This document shows positions 4,074 to 11,455 of a stretch of DNA of 47,894 nucleotides, in pieces. The notes below the pieces were generated by a model that was not told where the DNA came from, searched no databases, and saw only the letters and a list, made by a program, of their open reading frames with translations. Within the stretch, counting starts at the first letter, position 1; every line of letters begins with the position of its first letter. Position numbers and translations under genes: made by a program. Origin of the DNA: an uncultured Candidatus Hydrogenedens sp. (GTDB taxonomy: Bacteria > Myxococcota > UBA4151); the NCBI GenBank assembly GCA_902574205.1, contig CACGMS010000006.1, forward strand, positions 1-47,894, read 5' to 3'.

Positions 4074-5231
4074 GTGTTCACCATTCTACGTCAAGCTGAT
4101 GTCTACACACCCAAGCACCTAGGACTACGCGACGTCCTAATCGCCGGCGGCAAAGTTCTAGCAATTGAGCCAGAACTCCCGAAAATTCACGAGTCGATAA
4201 CGCACGAAGATATTGATCTCAACGGACAAAGGCTGCTTCCTGGTTTCGTTGATTGCCATGTTCATATTACAGGCGGTGGCGGCGAAGACGGCTTTGCATC
4301 ACGTGTTCCACCTCTTGCTCTAAGCAAACTTATTCAAGCAGGTGTGACCTCCTGTATCGGTGTCTTGGGCACTGACGGCAGCACGCGTACGATGCGCGAG
4401 TTAGTGGCCACCACACTCGGCTTACGCGAACAAGGTTTATCGGCATGGTGCTACACCGGTAGTTATCAATATCCGCCCATTACCCTGACCGGCTCGGTGC
4501 GTGACGATATTGTCTACGTGGATCCAATTGTTGGGGTTGGTGAATTTGCGATTAGTGATCACCGTTCTTCACAGCCGACACTCGACGAGTTCTTACGCGT
4601 CGTTTCTGATGGCTATGTGGCGGGAATGATCGCTGATAAATCTGGGCATACGCACCTACATTTGGGGGATGGTCGTCGCGGGCTCGATTTGGTTCGACGG
4701 GCGTTAGATGAAAGCGAGCTGCCTGCTCGTATCTTCCACCCCACTCACATCAATCGACAAAAGACCTTGTTTGCAGAAGCGCAAGAACTCAGCAAGCGAG
4801 GGGTGCCTATGGATGTCACAGCCTTTCCGGCTGATGAAGATAGCTACAGCGCCTGCGAATCAATCAGTCGCTGGATTGCAGACGGTTTCGACATCAACTT
4901 GCTCAGCTGCAGCAGCGACGGCGCTGGCTGCCTACCGGTCTTTGATGAAGATGGTCGACTGACCCACATGGACATCGGTCAACCCGTCACCCTAATCGAA
5001 ACACTCGGCGAATTGCTGACTTCGGGCTTACCTCTCGAGGACGTCTTGCCGGTCTTTACCAGTAATCCTGCACGCATCGCCGACTTGCGACAAAAAGGTC
5101 GCATTGAAGTCGGCTTAGACGCCGATGTATTGGTGCTTTCATCCGCTGCAAAAATTACTTCGGTGATGGCTAAGGGTGAATGGATGATGCGCCAAGAAAC
5201 ACTGACTCGTCGCGGTCATTTTGAAGGATAA
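4074..5231 (+). CDS. iadA: Isoaspartyl dipeptidase (beta-aspartyl peptidase)
   Basis: A 385-residue amidohydrolase-superfamily enzyme that cleaves isoaspartyl dipeptides. Visible active-site elements are the metal motif DCHVH (H62, H64), E71 in GGGGEDGF, Y131 in TGSYQYPP, R164 in AISDHRS, the HLH segment near HTHLHLGD, the PTHINR histidine and the aspartate in SCSSDGAG. The position equivalent to the carbamylated Lys162 of E. coli IadA appears to be Glu157. The start is GTG, with AGGAAAG about 11 bases upstream. It is first in the cyanophycin operon, 7 bases ahead of cphB. The natural substrate is therefore probably beta-Asp-Arg released by CphB, giving free Asp and Arg in the cytoplasm. Confidence 0.93.
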   Translation: MFTILRQADVYTPKHLGLRDVLIAGGKVLAIEPELPKIHESITHEDIDLNGQRLLPGFVDCHVHITGGGGEDGFASRVPPLALSKLIQAGVTSCIGVLGTDGSTRTMRELVATTLGLREQGLSAWCYTGSYQYPPITLTGSVRDDIVYVDPIVGVGEFAISDHRSSQPTLDEFLRVVSDGYVAGMIADKSGHTHLHLGDGRRGLDLVRRALDESELPARIFHPTHINRQKTLFAEAQELSKRGVPMDVTAFPADEDSYSACESISRWIADGFDINLLSCSSDGAGCLPVFDEDGRLTHMDIGQPVTLIETLGELLTSGLPLEDVLPVFTSNPARIADLRQKGRIEVGLDADVLVLSSAAKITSVMAKGEWMMRQETLTRRGHFEG

Positions 5232-5238
5232 ATAGAGT

Positions 5239-6066
5239 ATGAGCCCTGCACGTAGTGAACACGATGAAACTCGAGGCTGGATTGTTCCAGTCGGTGGCGC
5301 TGAAGAAAAAGTAGGACATCCGAAAATCCTGCAGCGCTTTGTTCGCCTCAGCGGAGAAGATGCGGCGCGTATTGCCATTATACCGACCGCATCGTCGCTT
5401 GATGAAACGGGTACTCAATACGAAGACCTGTTTCTCGAGCTCGGCGCAAACAAAGCGAAATCCTTACCCTACCGAGAACGCATCGATACCGAATCGCAAG
5501 ATTGGCTGAATACGCTTGATGAAGCGACCGGTGTCTTCTTTACCGGCGGCAACCAGTTGCGCTTATCAGCGACACTTGGGGGCACCTCAGTCGCCTCGTT
5601 GGTGCGACGTCTTAACGCACGCGGTGTGCCAGTTGGCGGAACCTCAGCCGGCGCTGCGATTTTGCCCGAACATATGATCGCTTATGGCGGAATCGGTGGT
5701 ACACCTACTGCGGGTATGGTGTCCTTAGCTCCAGGGCTTGGGCTCACCAACCGTTTCTTGATCGACCAACACTTTCGCGAACGCGATCGCTTAGGTCGCC
5801 TGCTCAGCGCGCTCAGCTACAACCCCTTTGCCGTCGGGCTTGGACTCGATGAGGACACCGCGGCGTTCATCTCGCCCGATAACGTGATCCACGCCGTAGG
5901 CTCGGGTGCCATTACCGTTGTCGACGTGTCACAACTGAGTCACTCCTCTGTCGCTGATGCACGCGAGGGAGACCCCCTGTGCATGACCGATGTGCGCGTG
6001 CACATCCTCCCGCACGGTGCCAGCTTTGACCTCAACACACTCAAGGCTTCGCCCCCTGAAGCCTAA
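5239..6066 (+). CDS. cphB: Cyanophycinase (peptidase S51)
   Basis: A 275-residue serine peptidase-like enzyme of family S51, close to the usual length for intracellular cyanophycinase. Diagnostic parts are the N-terminal IVPVGGAEEK, AIIPTASS, the FTGGNQ motif (101-106), the nucleophile Ser136 in GGTSAGAA, and DQHF with His178. It has no signal peptide, so it should act in the cytoplasm on cyanophycin granules, hydrolysing them to beta-Asp-Arg dipeptides. It sits between iadA, which would split those dipeptides, and cphA, which makes the polymer, so breakdown and synthesis are co-transcribed. Confidence 0.96.
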   Translation: MSPARSEHDETRGWIVPVGGAEEKVGHPKILQRFVRLSGEDAARIAIIPTASSLDETGTQYEDLFLELGANKAKSLPYRERIDTESQDWLNTLDEATGVFFTGGNQLRLSATLGGTSVASLVRRLNARGVPVGGTSAGAAILPEHMIAYGGIGGTPTAGMVSLAPGLGLTNRFLIDQHFRERDRLGRLLSALSYNPFAVGLGLDEDTAAFISPDNVIHAVGSGAITVVDVSQLSHSSVADAREGDPLCMTDVRVHILPHGASFDLNTLKASPPEA

Positions 6067-6101: not shown

Positions 6102-8900
6102 ATGGATATTATCGAACGTCGCGTCTTTAGAGGTCCCAATCAATACGCCCACTTCAAGGTGATTCGCCTCACCTTGGATCTCGGTCCGCTTGAAGATTAT
6201 CCAAGCGCTTCGATTCCAGGGTTTAATGATAAACTACTCGAATGGCTTCCGAGTCTCGACGAGCATGGCTGCTCCTATGGCGAACCAGGCGGCTTCATCC
6301 GTCGACTCAAAGAGGATGAAGGTACATGGATGGGTCATATCCTTGAGCATATGGCTATCGAGCTCCAAGCCCTAACCGGTGCCGATGTCACCTTTGGTAA
6401 AACGCGTGGCACGGGTCTTTCGGGTCAGTACCATGTGGTCTACTCCTATGAAGAAGAGCGTGTCGGGATTGCCGCAGCCGATCTCGCCATGGAAATGATT
6501 CACCATGCAATCCCAGAAGAACTGCGAGGACATGCCAAGGTTCGAGACGATTTCAACTTCGAAGAAGAGCTCAATGATCTAATCACCTATGCGCAGCGTC
6601 GACAGTTCGGTCCATCAACCGCATCACTGGTTCGAGCAGCCGAAGAACGAGATATTCCTTGGCTAAGGTTGAATGATTACTCCCTCGTGCAATTTGGTCA
6701 CGGTAAATACCAAAAGCGGATTCAAGCCACGGTCACCTCGGAAACTCGCCATATCGCCGTCGAAATCGCCTCGGACAAAGAAGAGACCAACGATCTACTC
6801 AGCGCGATTGGGGCGCCCGTACCCAAACAAAAACTTGTGCAATCGACGCGCCGGGCCATCCAAGCTGCCGAAGCGCTCGGTTATCCCGTCGTGATCAAAC
6901 CCTACAACGCCAACCATGGGCGAGGCGTTTCTTTGGATCTGACGACAAAAGAAGAGGTAGCAGCTGCTGTCGAGAAAGCCAAAGAGCATGGTCGAAGTGT
7001 TCTAGTTGAGCAGATGATCACGGGCTTCGATCATCGTATGCTCGTTGTCAACGGCGAGCTCATCGCAGTCTCTAAGCGCGTGCCTGGTCATGTTGTGGGA
7101 GATGGTAAGAAGACGATCACCGAGCTGGTTGATCAAGTGAATGAAGACCCTCGCCGTGGAGTCGGACACGAAAAGGTTCTGACACGAATCGAAATTGATT
7201 ACCAAGCAAAGCGCCTGCTCGAAGCCGCCGAATACACCGAGACTACCGTTCTCAATGAAGGCGAAGTCTTTTATCTTCGCTCGACGGGTAACCTCTCAAC
7301 CGGCGGAACGGCGATTGATCTGACCGATGTGGTCCATCCGGATAATCGAGAGATGGCACAACGGGCAGCACGAGCCATTGGCCTGGATGTCGCAGGCGTC
7401 GATTTTATTACGCCGGACATCACTCGCTCGTATCGAGAAATCGGTGGAGCGATTTGCGAAGTCAACGCAGCGCCCGGATTTCGAATGCACGTTGCACCGA
7501 CTGAAGGCACACCGCGCGACGTGGCGGGTCCGGTGATGGACATGCTCTTTCCACAAGACACACCGACTCGAATTCCGATCGCTGCGGTCACTGGTACTAA
7601 CGGAAAAACAACCACGGCGCGTATGCTCGCTCACATTCTTAAGATGTCCGGCTCGACGGTGGGATTAACCACCACCGATGGCGTCTATGTTGATGGACAA
7701 CGCACCGCCTCGGGTGACATGACCGGACCATACTCTGCTCAAATGGTCTTGCGTGACCCGAAAGTCGATACAGCCGTCCTGGAAACCGCGCGAGGCGGAC
7801 TGCTTCGCTCAGGCTTGGGTTATTCGAGTTGCGATGTCGGCTGCGTGCTCAATATAGCTAGCGACCATCTCGGTCTTAAGGGCATCGAGACCCTCGAACA
7901 GCTCGCAGAAATCAAGCGGATTATCGTGGAAGTGGCGAGAGATTGTGCGGTGCTCAATGCCGATGACATCAACTGCCTAAAAATGGCAGCGCATACCGAT
8001 GCAGAGCGAATCGCTTATTTCACGATGGATCCAACGAATCCGTTGGTCCGCCAGCACATCGAAGCAGGCGGTCTCGCTATCGTTCTTGAGCAAGGCATCA
8101 AGGGGCAAATGATTACCCTGTATGATGACGGCTTAGATCTTCATCTACTTTGGACACATCTCATTCCAGCGACCATGGAAGGCAAAGCCCTGCACAACGT
8201 TCAAAACGCTTTAGCTGCTGCATTGACTGCTTACGCAATGGGCACCAAGGTTGATAACATCCGCCAAGGGTTGCGAACCTTTGACACCTCATTCTTCCAG
8301 GTTCCTGGTCGGATGAACGTCTACGATGAACACCCGTTCAAAGTTATTTTAGACTATGGTCATAACCCCGCTGCGATTCAGGCGATGGTCAGCTTATGCA
8401 CTCGCCTCGATGTCGAAGGTCGTCGCATCTGCGTCGTCTCTGCACCGGGCGATCGACGCGACGAAGACATCCGCGATATTGCCCGACAAATCGCGCAAGG
8501 TAACTTTGATCAAATCATCGTGCGACGAGACGACTCTCGTCGCGGCAGAGCGGACAAAGAGGTCCCGCAAATTATCGAAGACGAGCTATTGGCTAACGGC
8601 GTTGACGCGTACTCAATCAAGATCATTATCGATGAGCAAGAAGCGGTCGATGAAGCCCTGCAGATGGCACAACGGGGTGATCTTGTGTTGATCTTTGGCG
8701 ACGCCACTACCCGCTGCTGGAAGCAGATTATCTCGTTCAAGCCTGACGATGGCGCTACCTCTCAAACCAACGGCAAAATCGATTCCAGTGTGAGCCTTGG
8801 CACCGAGTTTTCGTCACCGCAGCTTTTGGACCTTCCGTCGCTAGAAGGACTCATCATTGATGAGCGAGGAGCCCGCCTTGCTGCTGAGGAATCTGACTAG
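6102..8900 (+). CDS. cphA: Cyanophycin synthetase
   Basis: A 932-residue full-length CphA1-type enzyme that builds multi-L-arginyl-poly-L-aspartate with ATP. Domain order: an N domain (1 to about 220) with PGGFIRRL and THMGHI-like text (GTWMGHILEHMAIELQ); an ATP-grasp domain (about 225-480), with VIKPYNANHGRGV at 263-275 and CEVNAAPGFRMH at 452-463, which adds Asp to the backbone; and a Mur-ligase-like domain (about 490 to the end), with the P-loop GTNGKTTT at 498-505, ETARGGLLRSGL, PGRMNVY and LDYGHNPA, which adds Arg to the side chain. A GGAG ribosome site lies 8 bases before ATG 6102. All key motifs look intact. Confidence 0.97.
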   Translation: MDIIERRVFRGPNQYAHFKVIRLTLDLGPLEDYPSASIPGFNDKLLEWLPSLDEHGCSYGEPGGFIRRLKEDEGTWMGHILEHMAIELQALTGADVTFGKTRGTGLSGQYHVVYSYEEERVGIAAADLAMEMIHHAIPEELRGHAKVRDDFNFEEELNDLITYAQRRQFGPSTASLVRAAEERDIPWLRLNDYSLVQFGHGKYQKRIQATVTSETRHIAVEIASDKEETNDLLSAIGAPVPKQKLVQSTRRAIQAAEALGYPVVIKPYNANHGRGVSLDLTTKEEVAAAVEKAKEHGRSVLVEQMITGFDHRMLVVNGELIAVSKRVPGHVVGDGKKTITELVDQVNEDPRRGVGHEKVLTRIEIDYQAKRLLEAAEYTETTVLNEGEVFYLRSTGNLSTGGTAIDLTDVVHPDNREMAQRAARAIGLDVAGVDFITPDITRSYREIGGAICEVNAAPGFRMHVAPTEGTPRDVAGPVMDMLFPQDTPTRIPIAAVTGTNGKTTTARMLAHILKMSGSTVGLTTTDGVYVDGQRTASGDMTGPYSAQMVLRDPKVDTAVLETARGGLLRSGLGYSSCDVGCVLNIASDHLGLKGIETLEQLAEIKRIIVEVARDCAVLNADDINCLKMAAHTDAERIAYFTMDPTNPLVRQHIEAGGLAIVLEQGIKGQMITLYDDGLDLHLLWTHLIPATMEGKALHNVQNALAAALTAYAMGTKVDNIRQGLRTFDTSFFQVPGRMNVYDEHPFKVILDYGHNPAAIQAMVSLCTRLDVEGRRICVVSAPGDRRDEDIRDIARQIAQGNFDQIIVRRDDSRRGRADKEVPQIIEDELLANGVDAYSIKIIIDEQEAVDEALQMAQRGDLVLIFGDATTRCWKQIISFKPDDGATSQTNGKIDSSVSLGTEFSSPQLLDLPSLEGLIIDERGARLAAEESD

Positions 8901-8902
8901 TC

Positions 8903-10609
8903 ATGCGCATCGCCGATTCGAGACGGCTGACAGGTGGAAATCTTCAAAGCGCAAATCCGTGCGCGGTTGCCGAAGTTCAATTTGAAGAGGGTGAAGACGA
9001 GTCTCTTGCCCTGAATGTATGGTGCAAGCACGTGAATCAACTCTGCGAGGAATTAGGCCTCGACTTTGGTGAACCGTTTGTCCGACGTTATCAAGGTGGC
9101 GCATGTCTGGGTTTTGATGCACCCATCGATGCCCTCTATACGGCTACAGAAATCAACGAATACGCCATCGATGAAGCGAGCGAGCGAGGCGCTCAGCCAC
9201 TTGCGGACGTCTTGGATCAGCTCAAGACTTCGCTCGCCAACGAAGCGAACGAGCGGCTGCTCGAAATCCAAAGCGAAGCAGCAACGCGCAATTGTCCGTT
9301 CTTATGGGATGATGACGAGGTCTCGATAGGCTTTGGGCGATACGCCCAAGTCTGGGCTGCCGATAATTTGCCGCAGATCGAAGATATCGACTGGCCGACC
9401 GCTGGCCGAATTCCTGTCGCTATGATCACGGGGACGAATGGTAAAACAACAACCTCAAGAATACTTTCTAGGATTCTTAAGACTTCGGGTTTTTCCGTTG
9501 GCTCAACATCGACAGATGGTGTTTGCATTAACGAAGAGATCGTCGAAGCAGGTGATTGGACGGGTACGGGTGCGGCGCGCATGGTGTTGCGGCACTCTGA
9601 TATTTCCGCAGCCGTCTTAGAAACGGCGCGCGGCGGTCTGCTTCGTCGAGGTTTAGCGATGACGAGTTGTGACGTCGCCGTCTTGACCAATGTCGCGGCC
9701 GACCATCTCGGCGATTATGGCATTGACGATGTTGCCGCCATGGCTCAGGTCAAATCACTGATAAGTTCCGCCGTTAATCCAACAGGTCAAAGAGTAATCA
9801 ACGCAGACGACGAGCATCTGATGGCACGTCGTCATGACTACGATACACCCATCGTCTTGTTTGGTTTGAACTTCGAGCACCCTGAACTCGTTGCGCATCG
9901 CCAAGCAGGGCATGAATGCTGGTCGGTCAATGAGGGCAGAATCGTATACTCAGCAGGTACTCAAACCCAAGTACTGATGCCCACTCAAGATATCCCTTGC
10001 ACCTTTGGTGGCGCCGCTAAGCACAACGTGAGCAATGCGCTGGCAGCGGCTGCAGCAGCTTCAGTATTAGGAATAGAGTTTCAAACGATCAGAGCCGCAC
10101 TGAGCGGTTTTGGCGACCAACCATCTGACAACCCAGGTCGCTGCCAACTCGTCGAGGTCCATGGCGTCAAGATCATGCTCGACTTTGGTCACAATTCGCA
10201 CGGATTGAAGGCGATCTTAGACCTTGGAAAAAGCCTGATCGCCAAACAACCGGGCGCTCGTCTCTGTGTCAGCCTCGGTCAAGCGGGCGACCGACTAGAC
10301 GCAGAAATTTTAGCGCTCGGTGACGTCTTATCCGCCATGGGAACCGATCGAGTGATCTTGCGAGAGATGGCTGGCTATGAACGCGGTAGAGCGCCCACAG
10401 AAGTCGCGACGATGATCCGACAGCGACTGATTGAGCAGGACTACGACAGCACCAATATTCACATCGTAAAAGGCGAGATCAACGCGCTTGATGATGCGCT
10501 TAAGTGGTCAAAGCCTGGCGATCTGATAATGCTCCTTGTGCACCTTGAACGCGAAGCGGTCAGCCACTGGATCAGCGACCAAAAAAACGGGTCGAGTGAA
10601 CTGCGATAA
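8903..10609 (+). CDS. CphA-like Mur ligase protein lacking the ATP-grasp domain
   Basis: A 568-residue protein starting 2 bases after the cphA stop. Residues about 170 to the end match the Mur-ligase half of CphA: GTNGKTTT at 177-184, then STSTDGVCINEE, ETARGGLLRRGLAMTSCDVAVLTN, PGRCQL and LDFGHNSHGLKAIL. The first ~160 residues look like the CphA N domain; residues 126-152 (ATRNCPFLWDDDEVSIGFGRY) line up with CphA 179-207 (EERDIPWLRL...FGHGKY). The whole ATP-grasp module is absent. It could ligate a basic amino acid to existing acidic chains, modify CphA as a partner, or act on another substrate. The P-loop is intact, so catalysis is possible; the function is unknown. Confidence 0.85.
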   Translation: MRIADSRRLTGGNLQSANPCAVAEVQFEEGEDESLALNVWCKHVNQLCEELGLDFGEPFVRRYQGGACLGFDAPIDALYTATEINEYAIDEASERGAQPLADVLDQLKTSLANEANERLLEIQSEAATRNCPFLWDDDEVSIGFGRYAQVWAADNLPQIEDIDWPTAGRIPVAMITGTNGKTTTSRILSRILKTSGFSVGSTSTDGVCINEEIVEAGDWTGTGAARMVLRHSDISAAVLETARGGLLRRGLAMTSCDVAVLTNVAADHLGDYGIDDVAAMAQVKSLISSAVNPTGQRVINADDEHLMARRHDYDTPIVLFGLNFEHPELVAHRQAGHECWSVNEGRIVYSAGTQTQVLMPTQDIPCTFGGAAKHNVSNALAAAAAASVLGIEFQTIRAALSGFGDQPSDNPGRCQLVEVHGVKIMLDFGHNSHGLKAILDLGKSLIAKQPGARLCVSLGQAGDRLDAEILALGDVLSAMGTDRVILREMAGYERGRAPTEVATMIRQRLIEQDYDSTNIHIVKGEINALDDALKWSKPGDLIMLLVHLEREAVSHWISDQKNGSSELR

Positions 10610-11455
10610 CTACGAAGCTTCGGTCTGCGCACGCGCTCGATGTAACAAAGCGATAATCTCGGACTTAAACTCGCTCGGCTCGTCGACAACCTTAGCAAAG
10701 GGGCTAAACTGATAACCGTCAGGCTTAGACGAGTGAAACAAGCACCCGGTGCGTTCTAAGCGAGCCATCTTGACTTCCTCAGGATCGATCTGATGGAACG
10801 CCCGGCAAATCTCTTTCATATTCTCGGCATGATCATCATTCATATGCTCAAGAGCGCCCTTGCGCATGGTGTGCATGTGATCAGGGCTTGCGTGCGTTAG
10901 ATAATCGGAACCGGGAAACGAACAAATACGTCCAAAACCGGCAATATAGCGGATACTTTCAATGCTGCTCATACGCCAAAAGTGAAAATCATGAGTACGT
11001 GCGTAGCTTGCTGCTTTAGGAACCCGCTGAACGTATCGTGCAAACAACTGAGCGTACTCATCCTCATTAATGCGCTCGCAATATTCTTCGGTCTGCTCAC
11101 TGGTAGTCAGCTTGACAAAGTTTCCGTTAAGACTGGCGCGCCAGCTGCTTTGTGGATCCCCTGTTGACGCATCATTATGAACGAACAAACAGGCGCGGTT
11201 ATCGGCGCGCAGGTTTCGAGTATGCAGAGCAATATTGGCAATGAAAACGAATGGTCGACCACATTCATCAAGAGCGAACGGGACAATAGACCCCGTAGGA
11301 AAACCTTTGACGATTCGCTCGGTACTCAAGGTACCTAGGACGCCATTGGGTACCTGGTGCAGCCAATGAAGAACGTCTTGGGCGGGCTCACCGCGATGTG
11401 CAGCCTTATCTGCTGCACGTGATTCAGGATCAAGCTTTTCGACATCGTTTGACAT
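10610..11455 (-). CDS. hugZ: HugZ/HutZ-like heme-handling protein (PNPOx-like plus DUF2470)
   Basis: A 281-residue protein with an N-terminal flavin-reductase/pyridoxamine-oxidase-like split barrel (about 25-185; GVLGTLS, GFPTGSIVPF, HTRNL, DFHFWRMSSIESIRYIAGFGR) and a C-terminal DUF2470 module (about 198-275; GALEHMNDDHAENM, then ARLERTGCLF). This architecture is shared with HugZ, HutZ and ChuZ heme oxygenases/utilisation proteins. As the last gene after hmuTUV, 5 bases beyond hmuV, it probably liberates iron from imported heme in the cytoplasm. The conserved HMNDDH histidines are present. It meets the convergent CphA-like gene with no gap. Enzymatic activity is inferred from family and context. 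Confidence 0.85.
   Translation of the reverse strand: MSNDVEKLDPESRAADKAAHRGEPAQDVLHWLHQVPNGVLGTLSTERIVKGFPTGSIVPFALDECGRPFVFIANIALHTRNLRADNRACLFVHNDASTGDPQSSWRASLNGNFVKLTTSEQTEEYCERINEDEYAQLFARYVQRVPKAASYARTHDFHFWRMSSIESIRYIAGFGRICSFPGSDYLTHASPDHMHTMRKGALEHMNDDHAENMKEICRAFHQIDPEEVKMARLERTGCLFHSSKPDGYQFSPFAKVVDEPSEFKSEIIALLHRARAQTEAS

Follow-up and report, generated by a model that had tools for sequence, protein, structure and literature searches.

What does a shortened copy of cyanophycin synthetase contribute when its gene sits directly behind cphA? This question is raised by a 47,894-nucleotide stretch of contig CACGMS010000006.1 (the window) from an uncultured bacterium assigned to the Myxococcota, whose genome is a 60% complete assembly with Myxococcales bins as its nearest named relatives. 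When the window proteins were searched with Pfam and TIGR profiles, the genes iadA, cphB, and cphA were found in this order, followed by a gene for a CphA-like ligase, here called the paralog. The initial annotation had described the paralog as lacking the ATP-grasp module, as being made together with CphA, and as possibly adding Arg to existing chains or regulating CphA. The coordinates of the reading frames agreed with joint production: the cphA stop codon is located at 8898 to 8900, and the single possible start of the paralog leaves a gap of 2 nucleotides. The reading that we tentatively favor is that the paralog, derived from a duplication of cphA, is an active Mur-type ligase dedicated to CphA, which would arginylate the C-terminal Asp of CphA as a starter for the polymer.

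Architecture of the paralog

A full-length CphA has an N-G-M layout, in which G is the ATP-grasp domain and M is the Mur ligase domain. In the paralog, Pfam matches were obtained for Mur_ligase_M (PF08245; 96.7 bits against a gathering threshold of 24) and Mur_ligase_C (PF02875; 40.9 bits against 28.4), and none was obtained for an ATP-grasp domain. The protein runs from the beginning of the G domain (around residue 152) directly into the M domain (around residue 166). BLASTP aligned its M domain with that of the window CphA across 389 amino acids at 39% identity. The description of an ATP-grasp-less CphA paralog with an intact Mur ligase half was thus upheld. Despite this likeness to CphA1 (TIGR02068; PDB 7LG5, 7LGJ, 7LGQ, and 7WAE), the paralog scored 385 bits on TIGR02068, under the equivalog cutoff of 850, and in a tree of M domains the paralogs formed one monophyletic branch separate from all CphAs. 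The paralog is also the reverse of CphA2. Both proteins are derived from CphA and have one active ligase site (a prediction in the case of the paralog), but CphA2 has an active G site and has lost its M site, whereas the paralog has no G domain and an intact M site. In the NCBI annotation, the family is called "Mur ligase family protein" and nothing more.

A CphA-like N domain had been assigned to the paralog because its residues 126 to 152 line up with CphA residues 179 to 207. This stretch alone scored 17.7 bits in BLASTP with an E value of 2.2, which is the chance level. Pairwise BLAST was therefore rejected as a basis for homology, and a profile-profile comparison (hhalign) of 43 paralogs with 11 CphA N-terminal regions was used instead, with shuffling and reversal as controls. 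The whole N-terminal region of the paralog matched CphA residues 1 to 206 with a score of 49.3 (E value, 4e-7); 60 column shuffles reached no more than 20.3, the reversed control scored 11.4, and a smaller profile comparison gave an agreeing result. The match splits into two pieces. Residues 1 to ~92 align with the CphA N domain, the RRLTGPN motif of the paralog being the counterpart of RRVFRGPN in CphA, and about 40 residues are skipped; according to both the alignment and hhalign, this deletion includes the primer-making HxxEH segment. Residues ~106 to 152 align with the first part of the G domain in CphA (IPWLRLNDYSLVQFGHG), with a sub-block score of 29.8 versus a shuffle maximum of 21.4. 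Because of this split, the stretch singled out at first belongs to the start of the G domain and not to the N domain, which in TeCphA1 comprises residues 1 to 161 (PMC9427784). The relationship itself is real, and by this comparison the paralog carries the CphA N domain in a shortened form. When only the N-terminal profile was searched against PDB sequences, nothing significant was returned.

The paralog was also modeled with AlphaFold2, giving a predicted local distance difference test score (pLDDT) of 91 and a predicted template modeling score of 0.90. When this model was submitted to Foldseek, CphA1 chains ranked first, with template modeling (TM) scores of up to 0.87 of the query. Such a value exceeds what the M domain alone, about 70% of the length, could give; the N-M arrangement superposes on CphA1, and an unrelated N terminus was not borne out. 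The paralog therefore looks like, at the level of sequence and predicted fold, a CphA minus the metallo-site of the N domain and most of the G domain.

All 44 paralogs that were compared share the key Mur ligase residues (K181, T182, E240, D267, H268, R413, and H430); in 25 gammaproteobacterial ones, the Thr after the P-loop Lys is replaced by Ser (GTNGKS instead of GTNGKT). In the M domain of CphA1, roles have been described for the P-loop Lys, the Mg-binding Thr and Glu, and the lid Arg and His (PMC9427784), as well as for Asp-His (PMC9262961). This conservation suggests that the paralog is probably an active enzyme. The paralogs evolve faster than CphA, as judged from their longer tree branches, which would suit a regulatory or structural subunit that has lost catalysis. 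We nevertheless consider a dead subunit highly improbable because the P-loop, Mg/ATP, and lid residues have been kept in all 44 paralogs across lineages.

Linkage to cphA and the tail of the partner CphA

The distribution of the paralog was examined by profile searches of contigs with a four-sequence alignment as the query; a contig scan with the single paralog protein as the query gave no matches. The paralog was found in 12 of 195 Myxococcota genomes, in 8 of the 369 genomes of a class sample of a gammaproteobacterium, in about 27 of the 39 genomes of one gammaproteobacterial family, and on four plasmids, of which two are labelled Ruegeria, one Shinella, and one Roseateles. With further cases in a Pseudomonadota sample and an order sample, the total was about 65 genomes of Myxococcota, Gammaproteobacteria, and Alphaproteobacteria. 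The accessions of CphA and the paralog are WP_160788061.1 and WP_160788060.1 in Shinella zoogloeoides ATCC 19623, and WP_152460470.1 and WP_152460471.1 in Ruegeria sp. THAF33. Wherever the contig extended far enough, cphA was the immediate upstream neighbor, and among these genomes no paralog was found away from cphA where the contigs allowed checking. The idea that orthologs always follow cphA thus held for the genomes that could be checked. Many CphAs occur without a paralog.

The CphAs encoded next to a paralog (partner CphAs) have 54 to 91 extra residues at the C terminus, in which a variable linker leads into the conserved motif [LIV]I.DERGVR[IL]AR..ExxD, which varies as DERG(V/A)R and has Asp as its final residue. 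The tail and the final Asp were present in all of the 57 partner CphAs examined, namely, a set of 46 (including that of L032, where the contig ends within the paralog), one from a complete genome (L136), 4 plasmid cases, and 6 cases from the order sample. Neither was present in any of 32 CphAs without a paralog, and the order-sample CphAs without a paralog agreed. The length from the P-loop to the end was 429 to 468 residues in CphAs with a paralog, versus 381 to 405 in the 32 CphAs without one (up to 417 in the order sample). The tail was absent even from L011, the closest paralog-less CphA in the tree. No Asp-ended tail without a paralog was found in the sampled genomes; the genomes of A. 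baylyi and T. morbirosei, whose CphAs have a related tail, lie outside this sample. On these grounds, we propose a family of N-M CphA paralogs encoded directly after cphA and paired with a CphA ending in DERGVR..ExxD-COOH. The open-access literature that we searched, a scope that excludes key subscription papers on non-cyanobacterial cphA, contained no description of the paralog or the tail.

Is the final Asp itself under selection? In the set of 46, its codon was GAC in 29 cases, as in the window (8895 to 8897), and GAT in 17; the following stop codon was TGA in 22, TAG in 18, and TAA in 6. Six different residues occurred at position -2, and the spacing between RGVR and the C terminus ranged from 11 to 14. 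The use of both Asp codons and all stop codons, together with the varying -2 residue and spacing, argues that the terminal Asp itself is what selection has maintained. The possibility that overlapping genes or the ribosome site of the next gene impose the final Asp was judged unlikely, given that both Asp codons and all three stop codons are used and that the gap to the next gene differs widely. The AlphaFold2 model of the full CphA was poor (pLDDT, 65), with a disordered linker and the tail motif as a weak beta hairpin; only the disordered linker was relied on. The pairing draws its strength from its persistence across phyla, in spite of a scrambled linker. The tail, which was absent from the initial annotation, indicates that the paralog probably acts on CphA itself or docks to it. 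The roles suggested at first, Arg addition to existing chains or regulation of CphA, are possible too.

Docking might be the only role of the tail. In that case, the tethered paralog would be an auxiliary side-chain ligase acting on cyanophycin ends, where it would add Arg, Lys, or another residue and alter the rate or composition of synthesis. The intact M domain of the paralog, the gene linkage together with the tail pairing, and the small hairpin predicted in the weak model are all compatible with this explanation. We regard it as doubtful, since docking has no need for an invariant C-terminal Asp carboxylate, yet the final Asp is the same in every tail examined, at varying distances from RGVR, and since CphA has an Arg-adding M domain of its own. 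Another explanation is suggested by iadA and cphB, degradation genes that share the operon with cphA and the paralog in many genomes. Mur-type ligases that stand alone use a range of substrates, and the paralog could make a separate small product for cyanophycin turnover, such as a capped or different dipeptide, and not act on CphA. This is very unlikely in our view, because it leaves the tail pairing unexplained and because cphA and the paralog stay together without cphB and iadA, neither of which is nearby, in a gammaproteobacterial genome of ~2 Mb (L137:1911-6436). The paralog of that genome has the diverged motifs KRGL and GPTGHQ.

Possible priming of cyanophycin on CphA

The origin of the first primer of CphA is an acknowledged problem. 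The minimal cyanophycin primer is (beta-Asp-Arg)-Asp. CphA1 requires a primer, and the known solution is self-cleavage of pre-existing chains; the C..HxxEH primer-making site is found in ~83% of CphA1s (PMC9262961). Since the M domain of CphA adds Arg to a C-terminal Asp and the partner CphA always ends in Asp, we propose that the paralog would arginylate this Asp. A ligase without a G domain is able to add a single residue but not to elongate, which suits a starter enzyme. The architecture of the paralog, the conservation of its catalytic residues, its linkage to cphA, and, in the sampled genomes, its exclusive pairing with an Asp-ended tail are directly supported; we infer that it is catalytically active, that it adds Arg, that the tail is its substrate, and that it serves priming.

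The proposed mechanism would run as follows. A duplication of cphA would have given rise to the paralog through loss of the ATP-grasp domain and of the primer-cutting HxxEH site, and the paralog would have been inherited together with a CphA having a flexible tail ending in DERG(V/A)R..ExxD-COOH. The paralog would bind this tail and, using ATP, join Arg to the side-chain carboxylate of the C-terminal Asp, giving a beta-Asp-Arg unit on the C terminus of CphA. The G and M domains of CphA would then add Asp and extend cyanophycin from the C-terminal end, and the chain would be freed later by the endo-cyanophycinase of the CphA N domain or by CphB. Protein-primed synthesis in this full form, with the C-terminal Asp as an encoded starter, a G-less paralog that arginylates it, and the polymer held covalently on the synthetase, is possible but rather uncertain.

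Several points weigh against such a role. Partner CphAs retain the primer-making HxxEH site (the C..HxxEH motif is present in the window CphA) and also have an M domain; they may thus need no other starter and could put Arg on the tail unaided. The sequence does not fix which amino acid is added by the paralog. A related (E/D)RGV tail (ERGV or DRGV) occurs in the CphAs of A. baylyi and T. morbirosei (PDB 7lgm_A and 7lgn_A), and the published CphA of T. morbirosei works in vitro when given a primer. Finally, partner CphAs and paralogs each make up a monophyletic clade of their own in the M-domain tree, so that the pairing fits one origin rather than many independent events and may have arisen only once.

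The tail could also act on CphA alone, as a pseudo-substrate in the M site of the same protein. The paralog would then activate an autoinhibited CphA by binding or modifying the tail, for example, when Arg is plentiful. The end of the tail resembles a nascent cyanophycin chain, and the M domain binds a C-terminal Asp (PMC9427784), which would suit such autoinhibition; it is unlikely, however, given the many active CphAs without tail and paralog.

Coordinates, related loci, and implications

Table 1. Positions of the cyanophycin genes and their parts in the window
Feature	Position	Strand	Basis
iadA, isoaspartyl dipeptidase (TIGR01975)	4074..5231	+	392 bits, cutoff 331
cphB, cyanophycinase (TIGR02069)	5239..6066	+	242 bits, cutoff 127
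cphA, full N-G-M cyanophycin synthetase with C-terminal tail	6102..8900	+	1183 bits, TIGR02068 cutoff 850
CphA C-terminal tail, residues 877-932, linker and motif LIIDERGARLAAEESD, Asp last	8730..8897	+	Sequence comparison among CphAs
Paralog, N-M cyanophycin synthetase-like ligase, 568 amino acids	8903..10609	+	Open reading frame, Pfam, BLASTP, AlphaFold2, Foldseek
Paralog, shortened CphA-type N module, residues 1-92, RRLTGxN motif	8903..9178	+	hhalign with shuffles, alignment, AlphaFold2
Paralog, remnant of G (ATP-grasp) start, residues ~106-152, CPFLWDDDEVSIGFG	9218..9358	+	hhalign sub-block
Paralog, Mur ligase core and lid, residues 170-546	9410..10540	+	Pfam, residue conservation
Paralog, P-loop TGTNGKTTT	9428-9454	+	Within Mur ligase core

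A convergent gene on the minus strand (10610-11455), encoding a HugZ-like/CREG and DUF2470 protein, abuts the paralog. Elsewhere, two Myxococcota loci (L021:4780-10067 and L022:3914-9118) have two full-length cphA-like genes in tandem in place of cphA and the short paralog. These pairs likewise have a second cphA homolog beside cphA, but the tandem copies, 860 to 900 amino acids long and of N-G-M layout, lie on another branch and lack an Asp-ended tail. Two cphA copies (PMC10687191) and CphA1-CphA2 pairs in Sideroxydans (PMC5178258) have been reported.

Other CphA-like genes were seen during the searches. A gammaproteobacterial bin encodes a separate CphA-like protein of ~775 amino acids away from its cphA-paralog operon (L134:2839-5166); it is 36% identical to residues 396 to 878 of the window CphA, and similar proteins occur in several genomes of the same family. 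On a plasmid of Deinococcus sp. KNUC1210 (L143:2732-5231), the order is cphA, an isoaspartyl peptidase gene, cphB, and a second CphA-like gene, the last annotated as two overlapping pieces and perhaps frameshifted. In a Deltaproteobacteria bin (L031:4544-5343), cphB appears to be divided between two overlapping reading frames, through an assembly error or a frameshift. An unannotated human-faecal "Bacteriophage sp." record (MT838013.1:6719-7894) contains a CphA/Mur-ligase-like stretch that is 35.5% identical to residues 169 to 560 of the paralog. Mur ligases proper (MurE and the pseudomurein ligases) share the fold and catalytic motifs of the paralog, with TM scores of about 0.5 to 0.57 of the query, but the paralog lacks the N domain that binds UDP-N-acetylmuramic acid and scored 112 bits against the MurE cutoff of 373.

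The amino acid ligase RimK extends the C terminus of ribosomal protein S6, and glycogenin is a protein-borne primer for a storage polymer. Both are functional analogies only, being unrelated to the Mur-type paralog. If the proposed priming is true, a dedicated ligase and an invariant C-terminal Asp would be a second, different answer to the question of how the first chain arises, comparable to glycogenin. It would also provide a likely function for proteins labelled "Mur ligase family protein" in databases and may offer a handle on higher cyanophycin yields in engineered hosts.
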